A stretch of 64,000 nucleotides of DNA. Source: Hypericum androsaemum. Its lineage: Eukaryota > Streptophyta > Magnoliopsida > Malpighiales > Hypericaceae. The notes beneath the pieces are model-generated. The model worked only from the letters and a program-made list of their open reading frames with translations, did not search any database and was not told the origin of the DNA. This document shows positions 2,041 to 54,790 of the stretch, in pieces (the first letter of the stretch is position 1; each line of letters begins with the position of its first letter). The stretch is taken from positions 10,556,308-10,620,307 of the forward strand of contig OZ023184.1 in NCBI GenBank assembly GCA_963995505.1, read 5' to 3'. A program made the position numbers and the translations under genes.

Positions 2041-5000
2041 CAAGATTAGGCAGGGAAAGACAAGGAAAGGCAGGAAAAGGCAAGAAAAGGAAAGAAAAGG
2101 CAAGGAAAAGGAATGAAAAGGTAAAAAAAGGTAAGAAATGGCAAGAAAAGACAAGAAAAGGCAAGAAAAGGAAAGAAAAGAAAATAAAAGCAATGAAAAG
2201 GAAAGATAAGGCAAGATAAGGCAAGAAAAGGAAAGAAAAGCAAAGAAAAGGCATGGAAAAGGCATGAAAAGGCAAGATAAATCTAGGAAAATGGAAGAAA
2301 AGGAAAAAAAGAGGAAAGATAAGGCAAAAAAAAGGCAAGGAGAAGGCATGAAAAGGCAAGATAAGGTAAGAAAATGCAAGATAAGGAATAAAAAGGAAAG
2401 ATAAGTCCAGAAAAGGCAAGATAAGGGAAGAAAAGGCATGAAAAGGCAAGAAAAGGCTAGAGATGTCAAGAAAAGGCAAGAAAAGGCAAGATAACGTAAG
2501 AAAAGGCAAGAAAAGGAATGGAAAAGGCATGAAAAGGAAAGAAAAGCCAAGATAAGGCATGAAAAGGAAAGAAATGGAAAGATAAGGCAAGGAAATACAA
2601 GGAAAAGGCACAGAAAGGAAAGGAAAGGCAAGAAAAGGAAAGAAAAGGAAAGAAAAGGGAAGAAAATATAAGAAAAGTCAAGATAAGGCAAGGAAAGACA
2701 AGAAAAGGCAAGAAAAGGAAAGAAAAGGCAAGGAAAAGGAAAGAAAAGGCAAGAAAAGGAATGAAAAGAAAAGATAAGGCAAGAAAAGGAAAGAAAAGCA
2801 AAGAAAAGGCAAGAAGAGCGATGTAAAAGGCATGAAAAGGAAAGCAAAGGAAAGATATGGCAAGAAAAGGCAAGAAAAAAGTAAGAAATGGAAAAAAAGA
2901 GGAAAGATAAGACAAAAAAATGCAAGGAAAAGGCAAGAAAAGGCATGAGAAGGCATGAAAAGGAAAGATAAGGTAAGAAAAGGCAAGATAAGGAATGAAA
3001 AGGTAACATAAGGCCAGAAAAGGTAAGATAAGGCAAGAAAAGGCATTAAAAGGCAAGATAAATGCAAGATAAATCAAAAAAAGGTAAGAAAAAGCAAGAT
3101 AACGTAAGAAAAGGCAAGAAAAGGAAAGAAAAGGCAAGAAAATGTATGGAAAAGGCATGAAAAGGCAAGAAAAAGAAAGATAAGGCAAGAAAAGACATGA
3201 AAAGGCAAGAAAAGGAAAGCAAAGGCAAGAAAAAGGCAAGATAAGGCAAGAAAAGGAAAGAAAGGGCAAGGAAAAGGCAAGAAAATGCAAGAAAATGGAT
3301 GAAAAGCGAAGAAAATTCTGGAAAAGGCATGGAAAAGGAATGAAAAGGCAAGAAAAGGCAAAAAAGGCAACATAAGGCAAGAAAAGGAAAGATAAGGCTA
3401 AAAAATGCAAGGAAAAGTAAAGAAAAGGCAAGAAAAGGTAAGAAAAGGAAAGGAAAAGGAAAGGAAAGGCAAGAAAAGGAAAGAGCGGGAAAGAAAAAGA
3501 AAGAAAAGGCAAGGAAAAGGCAAGGAAAAGGAATGAAAAGGCAAGAAAATGCAAGGAAAAGGAAAGAAAAGGAAAGAAAAGGCAAGATAATGTAAGATAA
3601 TGCAAGAAAAGGAAAGAAAAGGCAAGGAAAAAGAAAGAAAAGGAAAGAAAAGGCAAGGAAAAGGTAAGATAAGACAAGAAAAGGAAAGAAAATGGAAGGA
3701 AAGGCATGAAAAGGGAAGAAAAGGAAAGATGAAGCAAGAAAAGGAAAGAAAAAGCAAGGAAATGAAAGAAAAGGCAAGGAAAAGGCAAGAAAAGGCTAGA
3801 TAAGGCAAGAAAAGGAAAGAAAAGTCAAGGAAAAGGCAAGATAAGGCAAGAAAAGGAAAGATAAGGCAAGATAAGGCAAGATAAGGCAAGAAAAGCAAAG
3901 AAAAGGCATGGAAAAGGCATGAAAAGGCAAGAAAATACAAGATAAGGCAAAAAAAGGAATTAAAAGGCAAGAAAAATGCAAGATAAGTCAACAAAAGGTA
4001 AGAAAAGGCAAGATAACGTAAGAAAAGGCAAGAAAAGGAAAGAAAAGGCAAGAAAAGGTATGGAAAAGGCATGAAAAGGCAAGAAAAGGAAAGATAAGGC
4101 AAGAAAAGACATGAAAAGGCAAGAAAAGGAAAGCAAAGGCAAGAAAAAGGCAAGATAAGGCAAGAAAAGGAAAGAAAGGGCAAGGAAAAGGCAAGAAAAT
4201 TTAAGATAAGGAAAGAAAAGTCATGAAAAGGCAAGGAAAAGGTAAGAAAATGCAAGAAAATGGATGAAAAGCGAAGAAAATGCCAGAAAAGGAAAGGAAA
4301 AGGAATGAAAAGGCAAAAAAAGGCAAAAAAGGCAACATAAGGCAAGAAAAGGAAAGATAAGGAAAGAAAATGCAAGGAAAAGTAAAGAAAAGGCAAGAAA
4401 AGGAAAGAAAAGGAAAGGAAAAGGAAAGGAAAGGCAAGAAAAGGAAAGAGCGAGAAAGAAAAAGAAAGAAAAGGCAAGGAAAAGGCAAGAAAAGGCAAGG
4501 AAAAGGAATGAAAAGGCAAGAAAAGGCGAGGAAAAGGAAAGAAAAGGCAAGATAATATAAGATAAGGCAAGAAAAGGAAAGAAAAGACAAGGAAAAGGCA
4601 AGATAATGAAACAAAAGGAAAGAAAATGCAAGGAAAAGGAAAGAAAAGACAAGATAAGGAAAGAAATGGCAAGATAAGGCAAGGAAATGCAAGGAAAAGG
4701 CACAAAAAGGAAAGGAAAGGCAAGAAAAGGAAAGAAAAGGTAAGAAAAGGTAAGAAAAGGGAAGAAAATGTAAGAAAAGTCAAGATAAGGCAAGGAAAGA
4801 CAAGAAAAGGCAAGAAAAGGAAAGAAAAGGCAAGGAAAAGGAAAGAAAAGGCAAGAAAAGGCAAGAAAAGGAATGAAAAGAAAAGATAAGGCAAGAAAAG
4901 GAAAGAAAAGAAAAGAAAAGGCAAGAAGAGCGATGTAAAAGGCATGAAAAGGCAAGAAAAGGAAAGATATGGCAAGAAAAGGCAAGGAAAAAGTAAGAAA

Positions 5001-5523
5001 TGGAAAAAAGAGGAAAGATAAGACAAAAAAAGGCAAGGAAAAGGCAAGAAAAGGCATGAGAAGGAATGAAAAGGAAAGATAAGGTAAGAAAAAGCAAGAT
5101 AACGTAAGAAAAGGCAAGAAAAGGAAAGAAAAGGCAAGAAAATGTATGGAAAAGGCATGAAAAGGCAAGAAAAGGAAACATAAGGCAAGAAAAGACATGA
5201 AAAGGCAAGAAAAGGAAAGCAAAGGCAAGAAAAAGGCAAGATAAGGCAAGAAAAGGAAAGAAAGGGCAAGGAAAAGGCAAGAAAATGTAAGATAAGGAAA
5301 GAAAAGGCATGAAAACGCAAGGAAAAGGCAAGAAAATGGATGAAAACGAAGAAAATTCTGGAAAAGGCATGGAAAAGGAATGAAAAGGCAAGAAAAGGCA
5401 AAAAAAGGCAACATAAGGCAAGAAAAGGAAAGATAAGGCAAGAAAATGTAAGGAAAAGTAAAGAAAAGTCAATAAAAGGTAAGAAAAGGAAAGGAAAAGG
5501 AAAGGAAAGGCAAGAAAAGGAAA

Positions 5524-8500
5524 GAGCGAGAAAGAAAAAGAAAGAAAAGGCAAGGAAAAGGCAAGGAAAAGGAATGAAGAGGCAAGAAAAGGCAAGAAAA
5601 AGGAAAGAAAAGGCAAGATAATGTAAGATAAGGCAAGAAAAGGAAAGAAAAGGCAAGGAAAAAGAAAGAAAAGGAAAGATAAGGCAAGGAAAAGGTAAGA
5701 TAAGGCAAGAAAAGGAAAGAAAATGGAAGGAAAGGCATGAAAATTGAAGAAAAGGAAAGATGAAGCAAGAAAAGGAAAGAAAAAGCAAGGAAATGAAAGA
5801 AAAGGCAAGAAAAGGCTAGATAAGGCAAGAAAAGGAAAGAAAAGCCAAGGAAAAGGCAAGATAAGGCAAGATAAGGCAAGAAAATGCTAGGAAAAGGAAC
5901 AAAAAGGAAAGAAAGGCAAGAAAAGGTAAGAAAAGGAATGAAAAGGTAAGAAAAGGCAAGAAAAGGCAAGGAAAGGCAAGAAAAGGCAAGAAAAGGAATG
6001 AAAAGGCCAAAGGCAATAAAATGTAAGAAAAGACAAGATAAGGCAAGAAAAGGCTAGAAAAGGAAAGAAAAGCATGAAAAGGAAAGAAAAGGAAAGATAA
6101 GACAAAAAAAGGTAAGATAAGGAGAGAAAAGCCAAGAAAAGCAAAGAAAAGGCATGGAAAAGGCATGAAAAGGCAAGAAAATGCAAGATAAGGCAAGAAA
6201 AGGCAAGGAAAAAGTAAGAAAAGGAAAAAAAGAGGAAAGATAAGGCAAGAAAAGGCAAGGAAAAGGCAAGGAAAAGGCCAGAAAAGGTATGAGAAGGAAT
6301 GAAAGGGCAAGATAAGGTAAGAAAATGCAAGATAAGGAATGAAAAGGCAAGATAAGTTCAAAAAAGGCAAGATAAGGCAAGGAAATGCAAGGAAATGCAA
6401 GGAAAAGTAAAGAAAATGCAAGAAAAGGCAAGAAAAGAAAAGAAAAGGAAAGGAAAGGCAAGAAAAGGAAAGTAATGAAAAGTAATGAAAAGGAATGAAA
6501 AGGAAAGACAAGGCAAGAGAAGGCTAGGAAAAGGAATGAAAAGGCAAGAAAAGGCAAGAAAAGGTAAGGAAAAGGAAAGAAAAGGCAAGATAATGTAAGA
6601 TAAGGTAAGAAAACGAAAGAAAAGGCAAGGAAAAGGAAAGAAAAGGAAAGAAAAGGCATGGAAAAGGTAAGATAAGGCAAGAAAAGGCAAGAAAATGGAA
6701 GGAAAGGCATGAAAAGGAAAGAAAAGGAAAGATGGGCCAAGAAAAGGAAAGAAATGGCACGGAAAGGAAAGAAAAGGCAAGAAAAGGCAATAAAAAGAGA
6801 AATAAATTAAGAAAAGGCAAGATAAGGAAAGAAAAGTCAAGGAAAAGGCAAGATAAGGCAAGAAAATGCTAGGAAAAGGAACGAAAAGGAAAGAAAAGGC
6901 AAGATAAGGCTAAAAATTGTAAGAAAAGGAAAGAAAAGCAAAGAAAAGAAAAGATAAGAAAAGATAAGACAAGAAAAGGCAAGATAAGGCATGAAAAGGC
7001 AAGAAAATACAAGATAAGGCAAAAAAAAGGAATTAAAAGGCAAGAAAAATGCAAGATAAGTCAACAAAAGGTAAGAAAAGGCAAGATAACGTAAGAAAAG
7101 GCAAGAAAAGGAAAGTAAGGCAAGAAAAGGTATGGAAAAGGCATGAAAAGGCAAGAAAAGGAATGATAAGGCAAGAAAAGACTTGAAAAGGCAAGAAAAG
7201 GAAAGCAAAGGCAAGAAAAAGGCAAGATAAGGCAAGAAAAGGAAAGAAAGGGCAAGGAAAAGGCAAGAAAATTTAAGATAAGGAAAGAAAAGGCATGAAA
7301 AGGCAAGGAAAATTCAAGAAAATGGATGAAAAGCGAAGAAAATGCCAGAAAAGGCAAGGAAAAGGAAAGAAAAGGCAAGAAAAGGAAAGAAAGGGCAAGG
7401 AAAAGGCAAGAAAATTTAAGATAAGGAAAGAAAAGGCATGAAAAGGCAAGGAAAAGGCAAGAAAATGCAAGAAAATGGATGAAAAGCGAAGAAAATGCCA
7501 GAAAAGGCAAGGAAAAGGAATGAAAAGGCAAGAAAAGGCAAAAAAGGCAACATAAGGCAAGAAAAGGAAAGATAAGGCAAGAAAATGCAAGGAAAAGTAA
7601 AGAAAATGCAAGAAAAGGAAAGAAAAGGAAAGGAAATGCAAGAAAAGGAAAGAGCGGGAAAGAAAAAGAAAGAAAAGGCAAGAAAAGGCAAGGAAAAGGC
7701 AAGAAAAGGCAAGGAAAAGGAATGAAAAGGCAAGAAAAGGCAAGGAAAAGGAAAGAAAAGGCAAGATAATGTAAGATAAGGCAAGAAAAGGAAAGAAAAG
7801 ACAAGGAAAAGGCAAGGAAAAAGCAAGATAATGAAACAAAAGGAAAGAAAATGCAAGCAAAAGGAAAGAAAAGACAAGATAAGGAAAGAAAAGCCAAGAT
7901 AAGGCATGAAAAGGAAAGAAATAGCAAGATAAGGCAAGAAAAGGCTAAAAATTGCAAGAAAAAGAAAGAAAAGCAAAGAAAAGGAAAGATAAGACAAGAA
8001 AAGGCAAGATAAGGCAAGAAAAGCAAAGAAAAGGCATGGAAAAGGCATGAGAAGACAAGAAAATACAAGATAAGGCAAAAAAAGGAATTAAAAGGCAAGA
8101 AAAATGCAAGATAAGTCAACAAAAGGTAAGAAAAGGCAAGATAACGTAAGAAAAGGCAAGAAAATGAAAGAAAAGGTATGGAAAAGGCATGAAAAGGCAA
8201 AAAAAAGGAAAGATAAGGCAAGAAAAGACATGAAAAGGCAAGAAAAAGGAAAGCAAAGGCAAGAAAAAGGCAAGATAAGGCAAGAAAAGGAAAGAAAGGG
8301 CAAGGAATAGGCAAGAAAATTTAAGATAAGGAAAGAAAAGGCATGAAAAGGCAAGGAAAAGGCAAGAAAATGCAAGAAAATGGATGAAAAGCGAAGAAAA
8401 TGCCAGAAAAGGCAAGGAAAAGGAATGAAAAGGCAAGAAAAGGCAAAAAAGGCAACATAAGGCAAGAAAAGGAAAGATAAGGCAAGAAAATGCAAGGAAA

Positions 8501-11500
8501 AGTAAAGAAAAGGCAAGAAAAGGAAAGAAAAAGGAAAGGAAAGGCAAGAAAAGGAAAGAGCGGGAAAGAAAAAGAAAGAAAAGGCAAGAAAAGGCAAGGA
8601 AAAGGCAAGAAAAGGCAAGGAAAAGGAATGAAAAGGCAAGAAAAGGCAAGGAAAAGGAAAGAAAAGGCAAGATAATGTAAGATAAGGCAAGAAAAGGAAA
8701 GAAAAGACAAGGAAAAGGCAAGGAAAAGGCAAGATAATGAAACAGAAGGAAAGAAAATGCAAGGAAAAGGAAAGAAAAGACAAGATAAGGAAAGAAAAGC
8801 CAAGATAAGGCATGAAAAGGAAAGAAATGGCAAGATAAGGCAAGGAAATGCAAGGAAAATGCACAAAAAGGAAAGGAAAGGCAAGAAAAGGAAAGAAAAG
8901 GCAAGAAAAGGCAAGAAATGGGAAGAAAATGTAAGAAAAGTCAAGATAAGGCAAGGAAAGACAAGAAAAGGAAAGAAAAGGCAAGGAAAAGGAAAGAAAA
9001 GGCAAGAAAAGGGAAGAAAAGGAATGAAAAGAAAAGATAAGGCAAGAAAAGAAAAGAAAAGGCAAGAAGAGCGATGTAAAAGGCATGAAAAGGCAAGCAA
9101 AGGAAAGATATGGCAAGAAACGGCAAGGAAAAAGTAAGAAATGGAAAAAAAGAGGAAAGATAAGACACGAAAAGGCAAGAGAAGGCATGAAAAGGAAAGA
9201 TAAGGTTAGAAAATGCAAGATAAGGAATGAAATGGCATGAAAAGGCAAGAAAAGGCATGAAAAGGAAGAAAATGTAATGAAAAGGCAAGATAAGGAAAGA
9301 AAAGCCAAGATAAGGCAAGAAATGGAAAGAAATGGCAAGATAAGGCAAGATAACGCAAGGAAATGCAAGGAAAATGTACGAAAAGGAAAGGAAAGGCAAG
9401 AAAAGGAAAGAAAAGGCAAGAAAAGTTAGGAAAAGGCAAGAAAAGAGAAGAAAAGTCAAGATTAGGCAGGGAAAGACAAGGAAAGGCAGGAAAAGGCAAG
9501 AAAAGGAAAGAAAAGGCAAGGAAAAGGAATGAAAAGGTAAAAAAAGGTAAGAAATGGCAAGAAAAGACAAGAAAAGGCAAGAAAAGGAAAGAAAAGAAAA
9601 TAAAAGCAATGAAAAGGAAAGCTAAGGCAAGATAAGGCAAGATAAGGCAAGAAAAGGAAAGAAAAGCAAAGAAAAGGCATGAAAAGGCAAGATAAGGCTA
9701 AATCTAGGAAAACGGAAGAAAAGGAAAAAAAGAGGAAAGATAAGGCAAAAAAAAGGCAAAGAGAAGGCATGAAAAGGCAAGATAAGGTAAGAAAATGCAA
9801 GATAAGGAATAAAAAGGAAAGATAAGTCCAGAAAAGGCAAGATAAGGCAAGAAAAGGCATGAAAAGATAAGAATAGGCAAGAGATGTCAAGAAAAGGCAA
9901 GACAAGGAAAGATAACGTATGAAAAGGCAAGAAAAGGAATGGAAAAGGCATGAAAAGGAAAAAAAAGCCAAGATAAGGCATGAAAAGGAAAGAAATGGCA
10001 AGATAAGGCAAGGAAATGCAAGGAAAAGGCACAAAAAGGAAAGGAAAGGCAAGAAAAGGAAAGAAAAGGCAAGAAAAGGCAAGAAAAGGGAAGAAAATGT
10101 AAGAAAAGTCAAGATAAGGCAAGTAAAGACAAGAAAAGGCAAGAAAAGGAAAGAAAAGGCAAGGAAAAGGAAAGAAAAGGCAAGAAAAGGAATGAAAAAA
10201 AAAGATAAGGCAAGAAAAGGAATGAAAAGCAAAGAAAAGGCAAGAAGAGCGATGTAAAAGGCATGAAAAGGCAAGCAAAGGAAAGATATGGCAAGAAAAG
10301 GCAAGGAAAAAGTAAGAAATGGAAAAAAAGAGGAAAGATAAGACAAAAAAAGGCAAGGAAAAGGCAAGAAAAGGCATGAGAAGGAATGAAAAGGAAAGAT
10401 AAGGTAAGAAAAGGCAAGATAAGGAATGAAAAGGTAAGATAAGGCCAGAAAAGGTAAGATAAGGCAAGAAAAGGCAAGAAAAATGCAAGATAAATCAACA
10501 AAAGGTAAGAAAAAGCAAGATAACGTAAGAAAAGGCAAGAAAAGGAAAGAAAAGGCAAGAAAATGTATGGAAAAGGCATAAAAAGGCAAGAAAAGGAAAG
10601 ATAAGGCAAGAAAAGACATGAAAAGGCAAGAAAAGGAAAGCAAAGGCAAGAAAAAGGTAAGATAAGGCAAGAAAAGGAAAGAAAGGGCAAGGAAAATGCA
10701 AGAAAATGTAAGATAAGGAAAGAAAAGGCATGAAAAGGCAAGGAAAAGGCAAGAAAATTCAAGAAAATGGATGAAAAGCGAAGAAAATTCTGGAAAAGGC
10801 ATGGAAAAGGAATGAAAAGGCAAAAAAGGCAACATAAGGCAAGAAAAGGAAAGATAAGGCAAGAAAATGCAAGGAAAAGTAAAGAAAAGGCAAGAAAAGG
10901 TAAGAAAAGGAAAGGAAAAGGAAAGGAAAGGCAAGAAAAGGAAAGACCAGGAAAGAAAAAGAAAGAAATGGTAAAGAAAAGGCAAGGAAAAGGAATGAAA
11001 AGGCAAGAAAAAGCAAGGAAAAGGAAAGAAAAGGCAAGATAATGTAAGATAAGGCAAGAAAAGGAAAGAAAAGGCAAGGAAAAAGAAAGAAAAGGAAAGA
11101 AAAGGCAAGGAAAAGGTATGATAAGGCAAGAAAAGGAAAGAAAATGGAAGGAAAGGCATGAAAAGAGAAGAAAAGCAAAGATGAAGCAAGAAAAGGAAAG
11201 AAAAAGCAAGGAAATGAAAGAAAAGGCAAGGAAAAGGCAAGAAAAGGCTAGATAAGGCAAGAAAAGGAAAGAAAAGTCAAGGAAAAGGCAAGATAAGGCA
11301 AGATAAGGCAAGAAAATGCTAGGAAAAGGAACGAAAAGGAAATAAAGGCAAGAAAAGGTAAGAAAAGGAATGAAAAGGTAAGAAAAGGCAAGAAAAGGCA
11401 AGGAAAGGCAAGAAAAGGAATGAAAAGGCCAATGGCAATAAAATGTAAGAAAAGGCAAGATAAGGCAAGAAAAGGCTAGAAAAGGAAAGAAAAGCAAAGA

Positions 11501-13224
11501 AAAGGAAAGATAAGACAAAAAAAGGTAAGATAAGGAGAGAAAAGCCAAGAAAAGCAAAGAAAAGGCTTGGAAAAGGCAAGAAAATGCAAGATAAGGCAAG
11601 AAAAGGCAAGGAAAAAGTAAGAAAAGGAAAAAAAGAGGAAAGATAAGGCAAGAAAAGGCAAGAAAAGGTATGAGAAGGAATGAAAGGGCAAGATAAGGTA
11701 AGAAAAGGCAAGAAAAGAAAAGAAAAGGCAAGAAAAGGTATGGAAAAGGCATGATAAGGCAAGAAAAGGAAAGATAAGGCAAGAAAAGACATGAAAAGGC
11801 AAGAAAAGGAAAGCAAAGGCAGGAAAAAGGCAAGATAAGGCAAGAAAAGGAAAGAAAGGGCAAGGAATAGGCAAGAAAATTTAAGATAAGGAAAGTAAAG
11901 GCATGAAAAGGCAAGGAAAATGCAAGAAAATGGATGAAAAGCAAAGAAAATGCCAGAAAAGGCAAGGAAAAGGAAAGAAAAGGCAAGAAAAGGCAAAAAA
12001 GGCAACATAAGGCAAGAAAAGGAAAGATAAGGCAAGAAAATGCAAGGAAAAGTAAAGAAAAGGCAAGAAAAGGAAAGAAAAGGAAAGGAAAAGGAAAGGA
12101 AAGGCAAGAAAAGGAAAGAGCGGGAAAGAAAAAGAAAGAAAAGGCAAGAAAAGGCAAGGAAAAGGCAAGAAAAGGCAAGGAAAAGGAATGAAAAGGCAAG
12201 AAAAGGAAAGGAAAATGTATGAAAAGGCAAGGTAATGTAAGATAAGGCAAGAAAAGGAAAGAAAAGACAAGGAAAAGGCAAGATAATGAAACAAAAGGAA
12301 AGAAAATGCAAGCAAAAGGAAAGACAAGAGAAGATAAGGAAAGAAAAGCCAAGATAAGGCATGAAAAGGAAAGAAATGGCAAGATAAGGCAAGGAAATGC
12401 AAGGAAAAGGCACAAAAAGGAAAGGAAAGGCAAGAAAAGGCAAGAAAAGGGAAGAAAATGTAAGAAAAGTCAAGATAAGGCAAGGAAAGACAAAAAAAGG
12501 CAAGAAAAGGAAAGAAAAGGCAAGAAAAGGCAAGAAAAGAAAAGAAAAGAAAAGATAAGGCAAGAAAAGGATAGAAAAGCAAAGAAAAGGCAAGAAGAGC
12601 GATGTAAAAGGCATGAAAAGGCAAGCAAAGGAAAGATATGGCAAGAAAAGGCAAGGAAAAAGTAAGAAATGGAAAAAAAGAGGAAAGAGAAGACAAGAAA
12701 AGGCAAGGAAAAGGCAAGAAAAGGCATGAGAAGGCATGAAAAGGAAAGATAAGGTTTGAAAAGGCAAGATAAGGAATGAAAAGGTAAGATAAGGCCAGAA
12801 AAGGTAAGATAAGGCAAGAAAAGGCATTAAAAGGCAAGATAAATCAACAAAAGGTAAGAAAAAGCAAGATAACGTAAGAAAAGGCAAGAAAAGGAAAGAA
12901 AAGGCAAGAAAATGTATGGAAAAGGCATGAAAAGGCAAGAAAAGGAAACATAAGGCAAGGAAAGACATGAAAAGGCAAGAAAAGGAAAGCAAAGGAAAGA
13001 AAAAGGCATGAAAAGGCAAGGAAAAGGCAAGAAAATGGATGAAAAGCGAAGAAAATTATGGAAAAGGCATGGAAAAGGAATGAAAAGGCAAGAAAATGCA
13101 AAAAAAAGGCAACATAAGGCAAGAAAAGGAAAGATAAGGCAAGAAAATGTAAGGAAAAGTAAAGAAAAGTCAATAAAAGGTAAGAAAAGGAAAGGAAAAG
13201 GAAAGGAAAGGCAAGAAAAGGAAA
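5524..13224 (+). repeat. Super-repeat copy 1 (~7.7 kb)
   Basis: Successive GAGCGGGAAAG markers are 2128, 906, 2387, 1173 and 1107 bp apart, 7701 bp in total. The first three spacings recur in the same order in the next two copies. Rare variants occupy matching places: GAATGAAGAGGC at 5574 against 13274, GTCAATAAAAGG at 5468 against 13168, and GGCCAAAGGCAAT at 6005 against 13706. By eye the first ~1.3 kb is nearly identical to copy 2. The start is an arbitrary marker, not a biological boundary. Confidence 0.8.
7322..7627 (+). repeat. Internal 153-bp tandem duplication of the super-repeat
   Basis: The motif ATGGATGAAAAGCGAAG occurs at 7322 and again at 7475, 153 bp apart. The same pair recurs in copy 2 (15032 and 15185) and copy 3 (30739 and 30892) with exactly the same spacing. 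The duplication therefore predates the spread of the super-repeat. Confidence 0.75.
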
Positions 13225-22048: not shown

Positions 22049-22050
22049 AG

Positions 22051-36100: not shown

Positions 36101-36130
36101 ATGAAAAGGTAAGATAAGGCCAGAAAAGGT

Positions 36131-36873: not shown

Positions 36874-36875
36874 TT

Positions 36876-43233: not shown

Positions 43234-43264
<31 letters not shown>

Positions 43265-43444: not shown

Positions 43445-43456
43445 GCTCTGATACCA
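43445..43456 (-). other. Primer binding site (initiator Met tRNA), element 2
   Basis: The minus strand reads TGGTATCAGAGC, two bases inside the 5' LTR. Confidence 0.93.
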
Positions 43457-43458
43457 AC

Positions 43459-44263
43459 TGATATGAATCTCCGCGGAAAAGATTCACAACTCGGACCGTT
43501 TGTTACTTTAGAATGGAACAGATCACAACTCACAAGAACTTACACGAACTAAGGCACGAATTTGTACCTCAACCCGCTGCAAGGGCTTCTGAACCTTGAC
43601 CTAAGGTCGTATCACGCCACAAGCAGGGATGGAATATCCGCTTGATAAGTGAAGGATAAATTCTAGCCAAGACGACTCACCAGCCTAAGCAAGAACAAAC
43701 GAGTATCAAACTCTCAACTAGCCAATGCTAAGTATTTCCGAATTGTGTGTGTCCGTTTTATTGCTAGGAGTCCTCTTTATATAGGCTCCCAAAGTACCAA
43801 AATATTCCTAAACAAGCTAACTCCTTAAAAGGAATTCAAAGGCTGGCCAAAACTCTCTTTCCTATTCTAAGGAGATTCTGGCCGAACTTATGCAACTAAA
43901 CAAGGAATAATATAAGCAAATAATATCTAATAGAATAGCTACTAGTTGCACGTCCAAAACAATTAGATGCATGGCCTAAATAGGCTGATTCTTCTTGATT
44001 CTCCATGTGCGCATGCATCTAGAAGCTTTCGTGCATGTCAAGCTTCCCATTCAGCCTCCAAAACGTGCATGGGCCTCCCTTGGGTTTCTTGGACTTCCTT
44101 GGTCCTCCACGAACTTGCTTGAGCCCAAACTTCATGCATTAGTCCATTGAAATCAGATTGCAACTTCCTAGCTCTTGCTCTTGTCATTGGCCCAATTGGA
44201 ACTTGAACTCGCTTCGAGTCTACAAGCTTGATAGTTGGTGCATCCGTAGGCTTGCTCACATCA
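43459..44263 (-). repeat. 5' LTR of element 2
   Basis: 805 bp, on the right because the element is on the minus strand. TATATAA (minus strand, 43777-43783) is followed 14 nt later in the transcription direction by AATAAA (43757-43762). The tail-coding frame is repeated here but is not joined to pol. Confidence 0.95.
43777..43783 (-). promoter_or_regulatory. TATA box in the 5' LTR of element 2
   Basis: TATATAA on the minus strand, within GAGCCTATATAAAGAGG, with AATAAA 14 nt downstream. Confidence 0.65.
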
Positions 44264-44268
44264 TTACA
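44264..44268 (+). repeat. Target site duplication, right (element 2)
   Basis: TTACA immediately after the CACATCA end of the LTR, matching 37468-37472. Confidence 0.95.
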
Positions 44269-45036
44269 CCTGAAGTGATTGTTGAAGAAGAGGTTTTGAC
44301 ATGGGAGGAATTTGGTGAATATTCTATTGACTTGTTCGATGGAGAACGTTTTGATGACCATGCCATGTCACTTCTTTACTTGAGAGATTTGTTTAATGAA
44401 TCAGAATTGGTGGATGTTGTTCATATGAAGAAGTGCTTAACTGCTATTGATGGTGAACAAGAAGAACTTGTTGTTTTAGTTGACAAGGAAGATGTCCAAC
44501 CCATATCTTACATGTCTCCTGATTTACATGTTGAACATATTGACTTCTTAGGTGTGGACGAGTTTAATTATGTTGGAGGTTCATCGTTGATCAACATCTG
44601 GAATAGTTTGAAGTTCAAAGAAAGGCTTAAACGGATTAGTAAGTCTTTAACTTTTGATTTGGAGGTGAATTTAGATTCTTTAAGACAGAAGTACTTGTTC
44701 TGTTGGAACGGAAGGTATCAAGTGCAGCCACGACGTTCAAAGAGTTCATGTTGCAACAGCATGGTTGTGAATTGGCAAAAGCACGACGGATGCAAGGATT
44801 TGAGGACAAATCCATTTCAAGAGAGGGGGAATGATGTGAACACGTCCACTATGGAGTTACAAGACCCACAACCTGTTCAAGTTCCACTTGGACCAATCAC
44901 AAGAGCAGGAGCAAAGACGCTTCAAGCTGAGCTCAACGGATTAATTCAAGGGATTTGGACCACAACCAGTTCGTGTAGGCCCGTGGACGTCCATGCAAAG
45001 CCCATGCACGTGATTGGAGTTATTTTGGACGCCTAA
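44269..45036 (+). pseudogene. C-terminal part of element 3 reading frame with LTR-encoded tail
   Basis: 255 codons plus stop, in the same frame as 37125-37472 when element 2 is ignored. The first ~180 residues are acidic (EEEVLTWEEFGEYSIDLFDG and after) and match no domain I recognise; no protease, polymerase or integrase motif is present. Then DLRTNPFQE, identical to residues just before the polypurine tract of element 2, shows that this end derives from a CRM-type integrase. The last ~68 residues lie in the 3' LTR and include VPLGPITRAGAKTLQAELNG, the counterpart of the element 2 tail with two basic positions changed (R to G, K to T). No internal stop is present, so the frame may have been under selection before the interruption. 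Confidence 0.7.
44819..44831 (+). other. Polypurine tract, element 3
   Basis: AAGAGAGGGGGAA abutting the 3' LTR, inside the reading frame that continues into the LTR. Confidence 0.88.
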
Positions 45037-45568
45037 AGGAGTAGAACCAAGATTCCTACATTTTAGGAATAAGAGTTATCCAAACTTTTTATAACTTTTT
45101 AGGAATAAGAGTTATCCAATAGTGGATAATGATTGTATTTTTCAATTCTGAGGATAAACATTCGTTTTAGAACTAGTTTAAGTAGTATGATAAGTTTGGA
45201 GCTCTTCAGGGCTTATCTTGTTGACTTTGGAGTCTATCCAGGTCAGTTTTAACCTCTATATAAGGAGGGCCACGAATTCAATAAAGGCATCACTTTTTGG
45301 CATAAGAAAATTCGTGAGTTTTGATACTCAGGTTGTTCTTGCGGGCTGGATTGCCTAGCTAGGGCGTTTGTACTTATCAAACGGAATTCCCATCTCCGTT
45401 TGTGGCGTATTCGATTCAAGATCAAGGTTCGCGTTCTCACCATTGCTACGGGTCAAAGTTAACCAACACTAAGGTTCGGTGCAAGGCGCAAAGCGACGGG
45501 TCAAGATCAACCATCATCCTAAAGTAGACGGTCCGAGTTGGTGCGAGTTCCTGACGGGATTCATATCA
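44832..45568 (+). repeat. 3' LTR of element 3
   Basis: 737 bp from TGATGTGAAC to TTCATATCA. Against the 5' LTR there are about nine substitutions (three of them clustered in the stretch GCCTAGCTAGGGCG) and one fewer T in a T-run. Confidence 0.93.
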
Positions 45569-45573
45569 AAGAT
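45569..45573 (+). repeat. Target site duplication, right (element 3)
   Basis: AAGAT immediately after TTCATATCA, matching 36131-36135. Confidence 0.93.
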
Positions 45574-45820
45574 AAGGCAAGAAAAGGCAAGAAAAATGCA
45601 AGATAAATCAACAAAAGGTAAGAAAAAGCAAGATAACGTAAGAAAAGGCAAGAAAAGGAAAGAAAAGGCAAGAAAATGTATGGAAAAGGCATGAAAAGGC
45701 AAGAAAAGGAAAGATAAGGCAAGAAAAGACATGAAAAGGCAAGAAAAGGAAAGCAAAGGCAAGAAAAAGGCAAGATAAGGCAAGAAAAGGAAAGAAAGGG
45801 CAAGGAAAAGGCAAGAAAAT

Positions 45821-45922
45821 GTAAGATAAGGAAAGAAAAGGCATGAAAAGGCAAGGAAAAGGCAAGAAAATGTAAGATAAGGAAAGAAAAGGCATGAAAA
45901 GGCAAGGAAAAGGCAAGAAAAT
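45821..45922 (+). repeat. Perfect 51-bp tandem duplication in the array
   Basis: 45821-45871 and 45872-45922 are identical, beginning GTAAGATAAGG. In other blocks this segment occurs once, so the duplication is local and recent. Confidence 0.88.
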
Positions 45923-46020
45923 GCAAGAAAATGGATGAAAAGCGAAGAAAATTCTGGAAAAGGCAAGAAAATGCAAGAAAATGGATGAAAAGCGAAGAAA
46001 ATTCTGGAAAAGGCATGGAA
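45921..46020 (+). repeat. 50-bp tandem duplication in the array
   Basis: 45921-45970 and 45971-46020 match at 48 of 50 bases (ATGGATGAAAAGCGAAG repeated). It overlaps the end of the 51-bp duplication. Both lengths are about five decamers. Confidence 0.85.
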
Positions 46021-49000
46021 AAGGAATGAAAAGGCAAGAAAAGGCAAAAAAGGCAACATAAGGCAAGAAAAGGAAAGATAAGGCAAGAAAATGCAAGGAA
46101 AAGTAAAGAAAAGGCAAGAAAAGGTAAGAAAAGGAAAGGAAAAGGAAAGGAAAGGAAAGGCAAGAAAAGGAAAGAGCGGGAAAGAAAAAGAAAGAAAAGG
46201 CAAGGAAAAGGCAAGGAAAAGGAATGAAAAGGCAAGAAAAGGCAAGGAAAAGGAAAGAAAAGGCAAGATAATGTAAGATAAGGCAAGAAAAGGAATGAAA
46301 AGGCAAGGAAAAAGAAAGAAAAGGAAAGAAAAGGAAAGGAAAAGGTAAGATAAGGCAAGAAAAGAAAAGAAAATGGAAGGAAAGGCATGAAAAGGGAAGA
46401 AAAGGAAAGATGAAGCAAGAAAAGGAAAGAAAAAGCAAGGAAATGAAAGAAAAGGCAAGGAAAAGGCAAGAAAAGGCTAGATAAGGCAAGAAAAGTCAAG
46501 GAAAAGGCAAGATAAGGCAAGATAAGGCAAGAAAATGCTAGGAAAAGGAACGAAAAGGAAAGAAAGGCAAGAAAAGGTGAGAAAAGGAATGAAAATGTAA
46601 GAAAAGGCAAGAAAAGGAAAGGAAAGGCAAGAAAAGGCAAGAAAAGGCAAGGAAAAGGAAAGAAAAGAAAAGAAAAGGCAAGGAAAAGGTAAGATAAGGC
46701 AAGAAAAGGCAAGAAAATGGAAGGAAAGGCATGAAAAAGAAAGAAAAGGAAAGATGGGCCAAGAAAAGGAAAGAAATGGCAAGGAAAGGAAAGAAAAGGC
46801 AAGAAAAGGCAAGAAAAAGCAAAATAAGTTAATAAAAGGCAAGATAAGGAAAGAAAAGTCAAGGAAAAGGCAAGATAAGGCAAGAAAATGCTAGAAAAAG
46901 GAACGAAAAGGAAAGAAAAGGCAAGATAAGGCAAGATAAGGCAAGAAAAGGCTAAAAATTGCAAGAAAAGCAAAGAAAAGGAAAGATAAGACAAGATAAG
47001 ACAAGAAAAGGCAAGATAAGGCAAGAAAAGCAAAGAAAAGGCATGGAAAAGGCATGAAAAGGCAAGAAAATACAAGATAAGGCAAAAAAAGGAATTAAAA
47101 GGCAAGAAAAATGCAAGATAAGTCAACAAAAGGTAAGAAAAGGCAAGATAACGTAAGAAAAGGCAAAAAAAGGAAAGAAAAGGCAAGAAAAGGTACGGAA
47201 AAGGCATGAAAAGGCAAGAAAAGGAAAGATAAGGCAAGAAAAGACATGAAAAGGCAAGAAAAGGAAAGCAAAGGCAAGAAAAAGGCAAGATAAGGCAAGA
47301 AAAGGAAAGAAAGGGCAAGGAAAAGGCAAGAAAATTTAAGATAAGAAAAGAAAAGGCAAGGAAAAGGCAAGAAAATGCCAGAAAATGGATGAAAAGCGAA
47401 GAAAATGCCAGAAAAGGCAAGGAAAAGGAATGAAAAGGCAAGAAAAGGCAAAAAAGGCAACATAAGGCAAGAAAAGGAAAGATAAGGCAAGAAAATGCAA
47501 GGGAAAGTAAAGAAAAGGCAAGAAAAGGAAAGGAAAGGAAAGGAAAAGGAAAGGAAAGGCAAGAAAAGGAAAGAGCGAGAAAGAAAAAGAAATAAAAGGC
47601 AAGAAAAGGCAAGGAAAAGGAATGAAAAGGCAAGAAAAGGCAAGGAAAAGGAATGAAAAGGCAAGATAATGTAAGATAAGGCAAGAAAAGGAAAGAAAAG
47701 ACAAGGAAAAGGCAAGATAATGAAACAAAAGGAAAGAAAATGCAAGGAAAAGGCAAGAAAAGACAAGATAAGGAAAGAAAAGCCAAGATAAGGCATGAAA
47801 AGGAAAGAAATGGCAAGATAAGGCAAGGAAATGCAAGGAAAAGGCACAAAAAGGAAAGGAAAGGCAAGAAAAGGAAAGAAAAGGCAAGAAAAGGCAAGAA
47901 AAGGGAAGAAAATGTAAGAAAAGTCAAGATAAGGCAAGGAAAGACAAGAAAAGGCAAGAAAAGGAAAGAAAAGGCAAGGAAAAGGAAAGAAAAAGCAAGA
48001 AAAGGCAAGAAAAGGAATGAAAAGAAAAGATAAGGCAAGAAAAGGAAAGAAAAGAAAAGGCAAGAAGAGCGATGTAAAAGGCATGAAAAGGCAAGCAAAG
48101 GAAAGATATGGCAAGAAAAGGCAAGGAAAAAGTAAGAAATGGAAAAAAAGAGGAAAGATAAGACAAGAAAAGGCAAGGAAAAGGCAAGAGAAGGCATGAG
48201 AAGGCATGAAAAGGAAAGATAAGGTAAGAAAAGGCAAGATAAGGAATGAAAAGGTAAGATAAGGCCAGAAAAGGTAAGATAAGGCAAGAAAAGGCATTAA
48301 AAGGCAAGAAAAATGCAAGATAATTCAACAAAAGGTAAGAAAAAGTAAGATAATGTAAGAAAAGGCAAGAAAAGGAAAGAAAAGGCAAGAAAATGTATGG
48401 AAAAGGCATGAAAAGGCAAGAAAAGGAAAGATAAGGCAAGAAAAGACATGAAAAGGCAAGAAAAGGAAAGCAAAGGCAAGAAAAAGGCAAGATAAGGCAA
48501 GAAAATTTAAGATAAGGGCAAGGAAAAGGCAAGAAAATTTAAGATAAGGAAAGAAAAGGCATGAAAAGGCAAGGAAAAGGCAAGAAAAAGCAAGAAATTG
48601 TATGAAAAGCGAAGAAAATGCCAGAAAAGGTAAGGAAAAGGAATGAAAAGGCAAGAAAAGGCAAAAAAGGCAACATAAGGCAAGAAAAGGAAAGATAAGG
48701 CAAGAAAATGCAAGGAAAAGTAAAGAAAAGGCAAGAAAAGGAAAGAAAAGGAAAGGAAAAGGAAAGGAAAGGCAAGAAAAGGAAAGAGCGGGAAAGAAAA
48801 AGAAAGAAAAGACAAGAAAAGGCAAGGAAAAGGCAAGGAAAAGGCAAGGAAAAGGAATGAAAAGGCAAGAAAAGGCAAGGAAAAGGCAAGAAAAGGAAAG
48901 CAAAGGCAAGAAAAAGGCAAGATAAGGCAAGAATAGGAAAGATAAGGCAAGAAAAGACATGAAAAGGCAAGAAAAGGAAAGCAAAGGCAAGAAAAAGGCA

Positions 49001-52000
49001 AGATAAGGCAAGAAAAGGAAAGAAAGGGCAAGGAAACGGCAAGAAAATGTAAGATAAGGAAACAAAAGTCATGAAAAGGCAAGGAAAAGGCAAGAAAATG
49101 GATGAAAAGCGAAGAAAATTCTGGAAAAGGCATGGAAAAGGAATGAAAAGGCAAGAAAAGACAAAAAAAGGCAACATAAGGCAAGAAAAGGAAAGATAAG
49201 GCAAGAAAATGTAAGGAAAAGTAAAGAAAAGTCTAGAAAAGGTAAGAAAAGGAAAGGAAAAGGAAAGGAAAGGCAAGAAAAGGAAAGTGCGGGAAAGAAA
49301 AAGAAAGAAAAGGCAAGGAAAAGGCAAGGAAAAGGAATGAAGAGGCAAGGAAAAGGAAAGAAAAGGCAAGATAATGTAAGATAAGGCAAGAAAAGGAAAG
49401 AAAAGGCAAGGAAAAAGAAAGAAAAGGAAAGAAAAGGCAAGGAAAAAGAAAGAAAAGGAAAGAAAAGGCAAGGAAAAGGTAAGATAAGGCAAGAAAAGGA
49501 AAGAAAATGGAAGGAAAGGCATGAAAAGGGAAGAAAAGGAAAGATGAAGCAAGAAAAGGAAAGAAAAAGCAAGGAAATGAAAGAAAAGGCAAGAAAAGGC
49601 TAGATAAGGCAAGAAAAGGAAAGAAAAGTCAAGGAAAAGGCAAGATAAGGCAAGATAAGGCAAGAAAATGCTAGGAAAAGGAACGAAAAGGAAAGAAAGG
49701 CAAGAAAAGGTAAGAAAAGGAATGAAAAGGTAAGAAAAGGCAAGAAAAGGCAAGGAAAGGCAAGAAAAGGCAAGAAAAGGAATGAAAAGGCCAAAGGCAA
49801 TAAAATGTAAGAAAAGGCAAGATAAGGCAAGAAAAGGCTAGAAAAGGAAAGAAAAGCAAAGAAAAGGAAAGAAAAGGAAAGATAAGACAAAAAAAGGTAA
49901 GATAAGGAGAGAAAAGCCAAGAAAAGCAAAGAAAAGGCATGGAAAAGGCATGAAAAGGCAAGAAAATGCAAGATAAGGGAAGAAAAGGCAAGGAAAAAGT
50001 AAGAAAAGGAAAAAAAGAGGAAAGCTAAGGCAAGAAAAGGAAAGGAAAAGGCAAGAAAAGGTATGAGAAGGAATGAAAGGGCAAGATAAGGTAAGAAAAT
50101 GCAAGATAAGGAATGAAAAGGCAAGATAAGTTCAAAAAAGGCAAGATAAGGCAAGGAAATGCAAGGAAATGCAAGGAAAAGTAAAGAAAATGCAAGAAAA
50201 GGCAAGAAAAGAAAAGAAAAGAAAAGGAAAGGCAAGAAAAGGAAAGTAATGAAAAGGAATGAAAAGGAAAGACAAGGCAAGAGAAGGCTAGGAAAAGGAA
50301 TGAAAAGGCAAGAAAAGGTAAGGAAAAGGAAAGAAAAGGCAAGATAATGTAAGATAAGGCAAGAAAAGGAAAGAAAACGCAAGGAAAAAGAAAGAAAAGG
50401 AAAGAAAAGGCAAGGAAAAGGTAAGATAAGGCAAGAAAAGGCAAGAAAATGGAAGGAAAGGCATGAAAAGGAAAGAAAAGGAAAGATGGGCCAAGAAAAG
50501 GAAAGAAATGGCAAGGAAAGGAAAGAAAAGGCAAGAAAAGGCAATAAAAAGCAAAATAAGTTAAGAAAAGGCAAGATAAGGAAAGAAAAGTCAAGGAAAA
50601 GGCAAGATAAGGCAAGAAAATGCTAGGAAAAGGAACGAAAAGGAAAGAAAAGGCAAGATAAGGCAAGAAAAGGCTAAAAATTGTAAGAACAGGAAAGAAA
50701 AGCAAAGAAAAGGAAAGATAAGAAAAGATAAGACAAGAAAAGGCAAGATAAGGCAAGAAAAGCAAAGAAACGGCATGGAAAAGGCAGGAAAAGACAAGAA
50801 AATATAAGATAAGGCAAAAAAAGGAATTAAAAGGCAAGAAAAATGCAAGATAAGTCAACAAAAGGTAAGAAAAGGCAAGATAACGTAAGAAAAGGCAAGA
50901 AAAGGAAAGAAAAGGTAAGAAAAGGTATGGAAAAGGCATGAAAAGGCAAGAAAAGGAAAGATAAGGCAAGAAAAGACATGAAAAGGCAAGAAAAGGAAAG
51001 CAAAGGCAAGAAAAAGACAAGATAAGGCAAGAAAAGGAAAGAAAGGGCAAGGAAAAGGTAAGAAAATTTAAGATAAGGAAAGAAAAGGCATGAAAAGGCA
51101 AGGAAAAGGCAAGAAAATGCAAGAAAATGGATGAAAAGCCAAGAAAATGCCAGAAAAGGCAAGAAAAAGGAATGAAAAGGCAAGAAAAGGCAAAAAAGGC
51201 AACATAAGGCAAGAAAAGGAAAGATAAGGCAAGAAAATGCAAGGAAAAGTAAAGAAAAGGCAAGAAAAGGAAATAAAAGGAAAGGAAAAGGAAAGGAAAG
51301 GCAAGAAAAGGAAAGAGCGGGAAAGAAAAAGAAAGAAAAGGCAAGAAAAGTCAAGGAAAAGGCAAGAAAAGGCAAGGAAAAGGAATGAAAAGGCAAGAAA
51401 AGGCAAGGAAAAGGAAAGAAAAGGCAAGATAATGTAAGATAAGGCAAGAAAAGGAAAGAAAAGACAAGGAAAAGGCAAGGAAAAGGCAAGATAATGAAAC
51501 AAAAGGAAAGAAAATGCAAGCAAAAGGAAAGAAAAGACAAGATAAGGAAAGAAAAGCCAAGATAAGGCATGAAAAGGAAAGAAATGGCAAGATAAGGCAA
51601 GGAAATGCAAGGAAAAGGCACAAAAAGGAAAGGAAAGGGAAGAAAAGGCAAGAAAATGTAAGAAAAGTCAAGATAAGGCAAGGAAAGACAAGAAAAGGCA
51701 AGAAAAGGAAAGAAAAGGCAAGGAAAAGGAAAGAAAAGGCAAGAAAAGGCAAGAAAAGGAATGAAATGAAAAGATAAGGCAAGAAAAGGAAAGAAAAGCA
51801 AAGAAAAGGCAAGAAGAGCGATGTAAAAGGCATGAAAAGGCAAGCAAAGGAAAGATATGGCAAGAAAAGGCAAGGAAAAAGTAAGAAATGGAAAAAAAGA
51901 GGAAAGATAAGACAAGAAAAGGCAAGGAAAAGGCAAGAGAAGGCATGAAAAGGAAAGATAAGGTAAGAAAAGGCAAGATAAGGAATGAAAAGGTAAGATA

Positions 52001-54790
52001 AGACCAGAAAAGGTAAGATAAGGCAAGAAAAGGCATTAAAAGGCAAGAAAAATGCAAGATAAATCAACAAAAGGTAAGAAAAAGCAAGATAACGTAAGAA
52101 AAGGTAAGAAAAGGAAAGAAAAGGCAAGAAAATGTATGGAAAAGGCATGAAAAGGCAAGAAAAGGCAAGATAAGGCAAGAAAAGACATGAAAAGGCAAGA
52201 AAAGGAAAGCAAAGGCAAGAAAAAGGCAAGATAAGGCAAGAAAAGGAAAGAAAGGGCAAGGAAAAGGCAAGAAAATATAAGATAAGGAAAGAAAAGGCAT
52301 GAAAAGGCAAGGAAAAGGCAAGAAAATGCAAGAAAATGGATGAAAAGCGAAAAAAATTCTGGAAAAGGCATGGAAAAGGAATGAAAAGGCAAGAAAAGGA
52401 AAAAAAGGCAACATAAGGAAAGAAAAGGAAAGATAAGGCAAGAAAATGCAAGGAAAAGTAAAGAAAAGGAAAGGAAAAGGTAAGGAAAAGGCAAGAAAAG
52501 GTAAGAAAAGGAAAGGAAAAGGTAAGGAAAGGCAAGAAAAGGAAAGAGCGGGAAAGAAAAAGAAAGAAAAGGCAAGCAAAAGGCAAGGAAAAGGAATGAA
52601 AAGGCAAGAAAAGGCAAGGAAAAGGAAAGAAAAGGCAAGATAATGTAAGATAAGGCAAGAAAAAGAAAGAAAAGACAAGGAAAAAGAAAGAAAAGGAAAG
52701 AAAAGGCAAGGAAAAGGTAAGATAAGGCAAGAAAAGGAAAGAAAATGGAAGGAAAGGCATGAAAAGGGAAGAAAAGGAAAGATGAAGCAAGAAAAGGAAA
52801 GAAAAAGCAAGGAAATGAAAGAAAAGGCAAGGAAAAGGCAAGAAAAGGCTAGATAACGCAAGAAAAGGAAAGAAAAGTCAAGGAAAAGGCAAGATAAGGC
52901 AAGAAAATGCTAGAAAAAGGAACGAAAAGCAAAGAAAAGCAAAGAAAAGGAAAGATAAGACAAAAAAAGGTAAGATAAGGAGAGAAAAGCCAAGAAAAGC
53001 AAAGAAAAGGCATGGAAAAGGCATGAAAAGGCAAGAAAATGCAAGATAAGGCAAGGAAAGGCAACGAAAAAGTAAGAAAAGGAAAAAAAGAGGAAAGATA
53101 AGGCAAGAAAAGGCAAGGAAAAGGCAAGAAAAGGTATGAGAAGGAATGAAAGGGCAAGATAAGGTAAGAAAATGCAAGATAAGGAATGAAAAGGCAAGAT
53201 AAGTTCAAAAAAGGCAAGATAAGGCAAGGAAATGCAAGGAAAAGTAAAGAAAATGCAAGAAAAGGCAAGAAAAGAAAAGAAAAGGAAAGGAAAGGCAAGA
53301 AAAGGAAAGTAATGAAAAGGAATGAAAAGGAAAGACAAGGCAAGAGAAGGCTAGGAAAAGGAATGAAAAGGCAAGAAAAGGCAAGAAAATGTAAGGAAAA
53401 GGAAAGAAAAGGCAAGATAATGTAAGATAAGGTAAGAAAAGGAAAGAAAAGGCAAGGAAAAGGAAAGAAAAGGAATGAAAAGGCAAGGAAAATGTAAGAA
53501 AATGGAAGGAAAGGCATGAAAAGGAAAGAAAAGGAAAGATGGGCCAAGAAAAGGAAAGAAATGGCAAGGAAAGGAAAGAAAAGGGCAATAAAAAGCAAAA
53601 TAAGTTAAGAAAAGGCAAGAAAAGGAAAGAAAAGTCGAGGAAAAGGCAAGATAAGGCAAGAAAATGCTAGGAAAAGGAACGAAAAGGAAAGAAAAGGCAA
53701 GATAAGGTAAGATAAGGCAAGAAAAGGCTAAAAATTGTAAGAAAAGGAAAGAAAAGCAAAGAAAAGGAAAGATAAGAAAAGATAAGACAAGAAAAGGCAA
53801 GATAAGGCAAGAAAAGCAAAGAAAAGGCATGGAAAAGGCATTAAATGGCAAGAAAATACAAGATAAGGCAAAAAAAGGAATTAAAAGGCAAGAAAAATGA
53901 AAGATAAGTCAACAAAAGGTAAGAAAAGGCAAGATAATGTAAGAAAAGGCAAGAAAAGGAAAGAAAAGGCAAGAAAAGGTATGGAAAAGGCATGAAAAGG
54001 GAAGAAAAGGAAAGATAAGGCAAGAAAAGACATGAAAAGGCAAGAAAAGGAAAGCAAAGGCAAGAAAAAGGCAAGATAAGGCAAGAAAAGGAAAGAAAGG
54101 GCAAGGAAAAGGCAAGAAAATTTAAGATAAGGAAAGAAAAGGCATGAAAAGGCAAGGAAAAGGCAAGAAAATGCAAGAAAATGTATGAAAAGAAAAGAAA
54201 ATGCCAGAAAAGGTAATGAAAAGGAATGAAAAGGCAAGAAAAGGCAAAAAAGGCAACATAAGGCAAGAAAAGGAAAGATAAGGCAAGAAAATGCAAGGAA
54301 AATAAAGAAAAGGCAAGAAAAGGAAAGAAAAGGAAAGGAAAAGGAAAGGAAAGGCAAGAAAAGGAAAGAGCGGGAAAGAAAAAGAAAGAAAAGACAAGAG
54401 AAGGCAAGGAAAAGGCAAGAAAAGGCAAGGAAAAGGAATGAAAAGGCAAGAAAAGGCAAGGAAAAGGAAAGAAAAGACAAGAAAAGGCAAGGAACAGGCA
54501 AGAAAAGGCAAGGAAAAGGAATGAAAAGGCAAGAAAAGGCAAGGAAAAGGAAAGAAAAGGCAAGATAATGTAAGATAAGGCAAGAAAAGGAAAGAAAAGA
54601 CAAGGAAAAAGAAAGAAAATGGAAGGAAAGGCATGAAAAGGTAAGATAAGGCAAGAAAAGGAAAGGCTTGAAAATGGAAGGAAAGGCTTGAAAATGGAAG
54701 AAAAGGAAAGATGAAGCAAGAAAAGGAAAGAAAAATCAAGGAAAGGAAAGAAAAGGCAAGGAAAAGGCAAGAAAAGGCAAAATAAGTTAA

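Follow-up and report, generated by a model that had tools for sequence, protein, structure and literature searches.

The window analysed here, a stretch of 64,000 nucleotides from Hypericum androsaemum (C5:10556308-10620307; contigs are designated by C and a number), carries a satellite array organized as a multi-level higher-order repeat (HOR), in which a 10-bp unit makes up blocks of 0.5-2.1 kb and these in turn make up units of 7.7-10.2 kb, present in three consecutive copies. The assembly comprises 385,055,772 bases in 29 contigs, 20 of them large (14.1-27.9 Mb each) and the remaining nine of ≤155 kb. Tandem Repeats Finder (TRF) detected in the window a period-10 tandem unit with the consensus AAGAAAAGGC, its purine strand being the plus strand, in the following stretches:

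1-21572 (TRF span 3-21572), plus strand: decamer array, TRF period 10 with 2129 copies, also delimited by the monomer parse
27128-36135 (TRF span 27127-36134), plus strand: next stretch of the decamer array, from TRF
45569-62595 (TRF span 45569-62588), plus strand: third stretch of the decamer array, from TRF
63230-63719, plus strand: short decamer stretch ahead of the next sequence resembling a long terminal repeat (LTR), from TRF

Decamers extend far past the window on either side. A wraparound parse of the array, with its transposable elements (TEs) removed, yielded 4,705 monomers, among them 3,885 of 10 bp and 712 of 11 bp, with a mean length of 10.12 bp and 430 distinct forms. Purines account for 85-89% of the plus strand in each full kilobase of the array. 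Runs of at least four A (n = 3,344) were best phased at 10.1-10.2 bp; in 150-bp pieces their vector sum reached 9.06 for a period of 10.12 bp and 6.07 for 10.5 bp, whereas a single base-shuffled version of the array gave about 2.4 at the three periods tried (10.1, 10.3 and 10.5 bp). Read from the sequence, this phasing at about 10.1 bp may reflect DNA curvature.

We traced the order above the level of the decamer with two anchors: M1 (AAAGGAAAGA[GC]C[GA][GA]GAAA[GC]), which takes in the marker used in the original prediction together with variants of it, and M2 (GGCAAGAAGAGCGAT[AG]TAA). Spacings were measured after two elements, TE1 and TE2, had been cut out along with a single copy of the target site of each. 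The window contains 20 copies of GAGCGGGAAAG, compared with a mean of 0.15 and a maximum of 2 in 100 dinucleotide shuffles; three marker sites are non-exact (5524, GAGCGAGAAAG; 10945, GACCAGGAAAG; 31972, GAGCGGGAAAC). The anchors delimit these features:

2808-54380, plus strand: block-edge anchors (25 M1 sites, variants included, and 15 M2 sites)
1700-55400, plus strand: HOR domain, ends approximate (partners at HOR offsets match at 93-99% in 150-bp windows, over ~1,726-40,351 in TE-removed coordinates)
1700-5515, plus strand: partial unit preceding copy 1 (M2 at 2808, M1 at 3475, M1 at 4440, M2 at 4920)
5516-13216, plus strand: HOR copy 1, 7,701 bp from M1 to M1, set by the anchors
13217-28924, plus strand: HOR copy 2, 10,148 bp of satellite plus TE1, set by the anchors
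28925-46165, plus strand: HOR copy 3, 7,803 bp of satellite plus TE2, set by the anchors
46166-55400, plus strand: fourth partial unit, rearranged (M1 spacings 1399/1213/2529/1231/1822)

The M1 spacings read 2128/906/2387/1173/1107 in copy 1, 2138/965/2395/1199/1128/1179/1144 in copy 2 and 2128/911/2387/1104/1273 in copy 3. All 17 of the spacings from which three consecutive copies with the same order of unequal blocks had been predicted were recovered to the base. The order of M2 is also identical across the three copies; with both anchors, the spacings become 2128/906/511/1178/698/1173/479/628 in copy 1, 2138/965/510/1178/707/1199/439/689 and then 470/709/481/663 in copy 2, and 2128/911/511/1179/697/1104/459/814 in copy 3. 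Copy 2 has a surplus of 2,323 bp, consisting of two added M1-M2 blocks, and sequence windows 1,175-1,195 bp apart inside this copy match at 98-100%. We conclude that the extra piece of ~2.3 kb is a recent gain.

Alignment block by block gave substitution differences of 1.69% between copies 1 and 3 (eight blocks, 464 gap columns), 1.42% between copies 1 and 2 (six blocks, 319 gap columns) and 1.36% between copies 2 and 3 (first six blocks, 299 gap columns). This substitution identity of 98.3-98.6% between units compares with 85.3-86.0% identity in three out-of-register controls. The units are much more alike than their own monomers, and the order of variants is common to consecutive head-to-tail units, both of which are characteristics of HOR satellites.

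The shared order exceeds what chance arrangements of the same monomers produce. In the TE-removed array, identical 40-mers separated by more than 300 bp make up 81,198 pairs. Shuffling the monomers 20 times left 311-592 such pairs, and 20 first-order Markov chains of monomers yielded 9,453-12,941. The sharing of 30-mers per position, counted in 100-bp offset bins, was 15.6 times the median bin at 7.7 kb, 12.1 times at 10.1 kb, 19.2 times at 17.8 kb and 8.6 times at 1.1 kb; raised bins overall lay at 1.1, 2.3, 7.7, 10.0-10.1 and 17.8 kb, 7- to 19-fold over the median. The two offsets on which the original prediction hinged, 7.7 and 10.1 kb with the retroelements removed, are thus both enriched, and its super-repeat made of blocks made of decamers is borne out by anchor spacings, offset bins and unit alignments, with the units measured at 7.7-10.2 kb. 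The rate of exact matches between monomers was 0.025-0.048 over lags 1-30 (baseline 0.0425), none of which stands out, and reached 0.12 at lag 1764 (17.85 kb), 0.084 at lag 997 and 0.069 at lag 116. As no lag under 31 monomers is prominent, the blocks are copies of irregular text, and the absence of short-lag periodicity alongside strong long lags argues that the order was inherited through long copying rather than slippage.

Two other accounts of the array were dropped. Plain low complexity is contradicted by the monomer-shuffle and Markov tests and by the monomer-lag profile; shuffled monomers lose the shared-40-mer signal, in agreement with the earlier claim that the array goes beyond simple low complexity. 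A coding origin had been considered for the 89 open frames of at least 200 amino acids, nearly all of which lie on the minus strand of the array and have TTG starts, a consequence of that strand's poverty in purines. Across the window, Rfam gave 0 matches to structured RNA at the gathering threshold.

The array is not uniform beyond the window. A region of 264 kb that includes the window contains 151 kb of decamers in 17 segments (12 plus, 5 minus). In segments 0, 3, 4 and 5, 51-88% of 150-bp windows have a 95% partner. Among the other 13 segments, 11 have such partners for ≤9% of windows, the exceptions being segment 10 (24%, at offsets of 1.8 and 5.1 kb) and segment 6 (one of its three windows); at 10.663-10.675 Mb, weaker offsets of 1.8 and 5.1 kb mark a minus-strand segment. 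Two further HOR patches lie directly upstream of the window's array (C5:10477108-10516308), the first of ~23 kb with main offsets of 4,966, 5,163 and 5,195 bp and the second of ~15 kb with offsets of 5,310-5,329 bp. Of the 23 places found for the anchor in an exact search across the genome, 22 fall within the window and the other, at 10553344, precedes it by 2,964 bp; the best places on other chromosomes for a 3.3-kb piece of the HOR reach 78-79%. Because the upstream patches have other units and the anchor of the window's unit is private, we conclude that the array is a mosaic of separate amplifications. The prediction of a single super-repeat therefore holds for the hierarchy and fails for its uniformity: the repeat makes up one of several patches that differ in their units, it has a private anchor, and its copy 2 carries the extra ~2.3 kb.

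Around the HOR domain, one further feature was delimited:

300-2170, plus strand: older duplicate of ~57,000-58,700 (85-97% by 150-bp windows, at an offset of ~41.6 kb once TEs are removed)

For 150-bp windows, three arbitrary control offsets gave medians of 81-82%. The duplicate pair flanks the HOR domain on both sides, and we read it as an older duplication. Past ~55,400, the best partner is below 95% for most 150-bp windows, except in a piece at ~61,000-61,700 with matches of 91-99% to HOR sequence; within 58,700-62,400, some parts match one another at offsets of 3.1-3.2 kb. At strand switches near 10.6598 Mb (10659760) and 10.7071 Mb (10707120), purine and pyrimidine strands abut with hardly any sequence between them. 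Repeats were only weak at four 6-kb loci on C2 and C12, where no 40-mer offset was represented by more than 26 pairs.

The retrotransposons within the array provide a means of ordering events. TE1, TE2 and the element nested in TE2 are each bounded by a target-site duplication (TSD):

21573-27127, plus strand: TE1, young Ty3/gypsy LTR retrotransposon, TSD GAAAA (gag-pol open frame 22222-26640)
36136-45568, plus strand: TE2, LTR element with a nested element inside, TSD AAGAT (LTRs 98.5% identical)
37473-44263, minus strand: Ty3/gypsy element nested in TE2, TSD TTACA (open frame 38052-42839, minus strand)
62596-63229, plus strand: solo-LTR-like sequence (79% to the LTR of the nested element)

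The LTRs of TE1, which has the Pfam domains gag, RVT_1, RNaseH, integrase and SH3_Tf2-1, differ by 1 mismatch in 477 aligned bases, those of TE2 by 10 mismatches in 741 aligned positions and by one gap, and those of the nested element by 3 mismatches in 805. When joined, the flanks of TE2 match a place in copy 1 with 0 mismatches over 120 bp; the unit duplication therefore preceded the insertion of TE2 into copy 3. The divergence of the units (1.4-1.7%) is near that of the TE2 LTRs. With a plant substitution rate of 1.3e-8 per site per year, which we assumed, the unit copies and the TE2 LTRs would date to roughly 0.5-0.7 million years ago and TE1 to less than 0.1 million years ago.

We also examined where the decamers lie along the chromosomes. 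Point samples of C5 (20 of 1.5 kb) contained decamers at 10.2, 10.3, 10.35, 10.74, 10.8, 11.0 and 11.2 Mb, while those at 9.0, 9.4, 9.8, 10.0, 10.1, 11.6 and 12.0 Mb had none; six intervening samples (10.40, 10.44, 10.76, 10.85, 10.90 and 11.1 Mb) were other sequence. Decamers and retrotransposons together form a domain of ~1 Mb (10.19-11.2 Mb) mid-way along the 21.5 Mb of C5. Genome-wide, a string of 34 bases made purely of decamers matches exactly at 714 places and its reversed control at 0; the matches listed (~100) lie on C1 at 7.7-10.0 Mb and on C2. A AAGATAAGGC-type string occurs at 19 places, all interior, on nine chromosomes. Interior decamers are present on at least 11 of the 20 chromosomes (C1, C2, C5, C6, C7, C12, C14, C15, C16, C18 and C19). 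Among the matches listed, all 41 of 41 to the TE1 LTR fall in interior clusters on 11 chromosomes, one to each, the clusters being 5-658 kb wide and located at 0.34-0.59 of chromosome length; within that set TE1 is confined to centromere-like domains, as is expected of a centromeric retrotransposon. Given the TE1 LTR clusters and the single compact domain on C5, the ~1 Mb decamer domain is, on the evidence of sequence, probably the centromeric region of one chromosome.

The domain might instead be pericentromeric heterochromatin, with the kinetochore elsewhere. The available text on white lupin, where the most abundant satellite is without CENH3 enrichment (PMC9016224), offers a precedent, but we consider this unlikely, since the listed TE1 LTR matches are restricted to interior clusters and the same text has short-unit plant satellites, CL2-5bp and CL55-8bp, enriched in CENH3.

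As to how the hierarchy arose, we hold with considerable confidence that it reflects local segmental amplification of diverged decamers in a ~1 Mb, most likely centromeric, domain. The diverged decamers would constitute an aperiodic text, segments of which would have been copied beside themselves repeatedly, via out-of-register homologous exchange or break repair. Copying would have taken place at several scales, from blocks of ~0.5-2 kb to units of 7.7-10.2 kb and, latest, the piece of ~2.3 kb in copy 2, with separate patches amplified independently, each with its own unit. LTR retrotransposons (Ty3/gypsy) invaded the array, the TE1 family being found, among the matches listed, solely in centromere-like domains. 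We infer unequal exchange as the copying step, as we do the centromere identity and kinetochore role of the domain.

Several observations weigh against this interpretation. Clear unit copies number just three. At fixed offsets with gaps counted, the median difference is 6.7% at 7.7 kb, 2.0% at 10.1 kb and 3.3% at 17.85 kb; by the same 150-bp test, three controls differed by 18-18.7%, and copy 3 and the fourth unit stood 16.7% apart. Given this scatter, parts of units have been shifted by insertions and deletions or replaced. The joined flanks of TE1 have no close ungapped match elsewhere (at best 18 mismatches in 120) and give no event order for TE1. A plant centromeric satellite would be expected at one major site on every chromosome; among the matches listed, interior decamers account for 11 of 20, which is a lower bound. 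For the TE1 LTR, 40 of 120 candidates were scored, so that remoter copies may exist. On C12, C16 and C19 the TE1 cluster lies 0.5-0.6 Mb from the nearest listed decamers. Finally, decamers occur at chromosome ends too, and the family is therefore not centromere-specific.

Rolling-circle replication of an excised circle followed by re-insertion, in place of unequal exchange, would be expected to leave a clean tandem run of one unit, which is what the second upstream patch is (5.31-5.33 kb). The units of the window, however, vary by a nested piece (7.70, 10.15 and 7.80 kb), and smaller blocks are duplicated within them. Stepwise local exchange therefore fits these nested length differences and inner duplications better, and we regard a rolling-circle origin as improbable. 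That the repeated order is an assembly artefact, with the same reads placed more than once, seems very improbable: many contig ends stop within decamers, a sign of difficult assembly, but the copies are 1.4-1.7% apart, contain private TE insertions with intact TSDs and include a private 2.3-kb gain. Simple replication slippage of decamers, suggested by the tandem, imperfect array with its 11-bp variants, can be dismissed for practical purposes, because monomer shuffles and Markov chains fall short of the observed shared 40-mers and short-lag periodicity is absent.

Decamers also characterize the chromosome ends. We examined 100-300 bases at each of the 40 ends of the 20 large contigs; six starts consist of N, leaving 34 readable. 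Decamers fill 25 of the 34 (the C11 start is degenerate), namely the starts of C2, C4-C7, C9, C11, C13 and C16-C20 and the ends of C5-C14, C16 and C18; TTTAGGG is found at 4 and other sequence at 5. The types of element and the TTTAGGG ends are suggestive of a seed plant. In 3.4 kb pooled from 15 ends, AAGATAAGGC occurs at 0 per kb and ATGAAAAGGC at 25.3 per kb; the corresponding values for positions 1-21500 of the window are 7.5 and 4.2 per kb. We conclude that the 15 pooled end arrays are a distinct ATGAAAAGGC-rich subfamily without AAGATAAGGC. At the C4 start, the one end tested, the period is strictly 10 bp. Of the 25 decamer ends, 20 have the purine strand directed outward (counted by eye; two-sided binomial P = 0.004). 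A ATGAAAAGGC-type string was found at 55 places. Of these, 27 are no more than 25 kb from an end of a large contig, 11 are on small contigs, one is at C3:0.48 Mb and 16 are interior, these end-type decamers lying at C6 12.67 and 13.79 Mb and C18 6.58 and 7.14-7.15 Mb. It is likelier that the end decamers are subtelomeric arrays at which the assembly stopped than that they replace telomeres. A loss of canonical telomeres was considered and dropped, as TTTAGGG is present at four ends. Three of the small contigs have round sizes (C22, 12,500 bp; C23, 25,000 bp; C29, 155,000 bp), probably the result of cuts made by a scaffolding program.

The closest known architecture, as far as the available texts go, is that of human satellites 2 and 3, which have a 5-bp ancestral unit and chromosome-specific kilobase units, such as 1.77 kb on chromosome 1 and 3.6 kb in DYZ1 on the Y (PMC4022460, in part). 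Like them, the array here couples a very short base to locus-specific units of kilobase size; they differ in that the human satellites derive from CATTC, 5 bp, whereas the array here has the 10-bp consensus AAGAAAAGGC, not a CATTC derivative, units of 7.7-10.2 kb, inner blocks and few copies. In plants, the accessible portion of PMC2820488 describes from Beta vulgaris the 10-bp minisatellite BvMSat01 (AACTTATTGG) and BvMSat07, a 30-bp unit built of 5-bp motifs; these resemble our array as a 10-bp plant minisatellite and as a short higher-order unit made from pentamers. The consensus AAGAAAAGGC is not the BvMSat01 monomer AACTTATTGG, however, and that portion of the source mentions no kilobase hierarchy. 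The white lupin units CL2-5bp and CL55-8bp are very short CENH3-enriched centromere units adjoining a centromeric retrotransposon; their arrays are mostly missing from the lupin assembly, and no kilobase HOR is mentioned in the available text (PMC9016224). Drosophila Prodsat, a 10-bp centromeric satellite (AATAACATAG; PMC8122249, in part), shares the unit length but is from an insect, AT-rich and of other sequence. The text available for Vaccinium (PMC7290377) contains no comparable decamer array. Jujube, whose centromeres are described as devoid of tandem-repeat-rich structure (PMC12596083), mango, in which the assembly of every chromosome reaches the telomeres (PMC13110181), and Cucurbita moschata and C. 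maxima, for which different centromeric repeats are reported (PMC13174253), were weakly excluded as sources of the array. Among the literature matches listed, no plant satellite combines a 10-bp base with a kilobase HOR, and none is reported by title for the monomer strings or '10-bp' phrases; 16-mers spanning two monomers had no match in the literature text of one collection. The prediction that no such plant satellite has been described thus stands for the combination of base and hierarchy, which is unmatched in these listings, and not for its components, as a 10-bp plant minisatellite and, in the human satellites, kilobase units have been published.

Centromere models lean on nucleosome-length monomers. 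The array described here shows that a very short satellite can gain layered structure: a unit of about one helical turn carries layered, locus-private HORs, as human satellites 2 and 3 do. With its private anchor, and with TEs inside the copies that serve to date them, this locus allows amplification and insertion to be placed in order. We offer, as a tentative model that falls somewhat short of even odds, that one family of helix-length purine decamers may build both working centromeres and subtelomeres in Hypericum androsaemum as diverged subfamilies. The centromeric HORs of 5-10 kb would then arise independently at each site, with no need for a nucleosome-length monomer, and A-tracts phased at 10.1 bp would impart a left-handed curvature that favours nucleosomes, possibly those containing CENH3.

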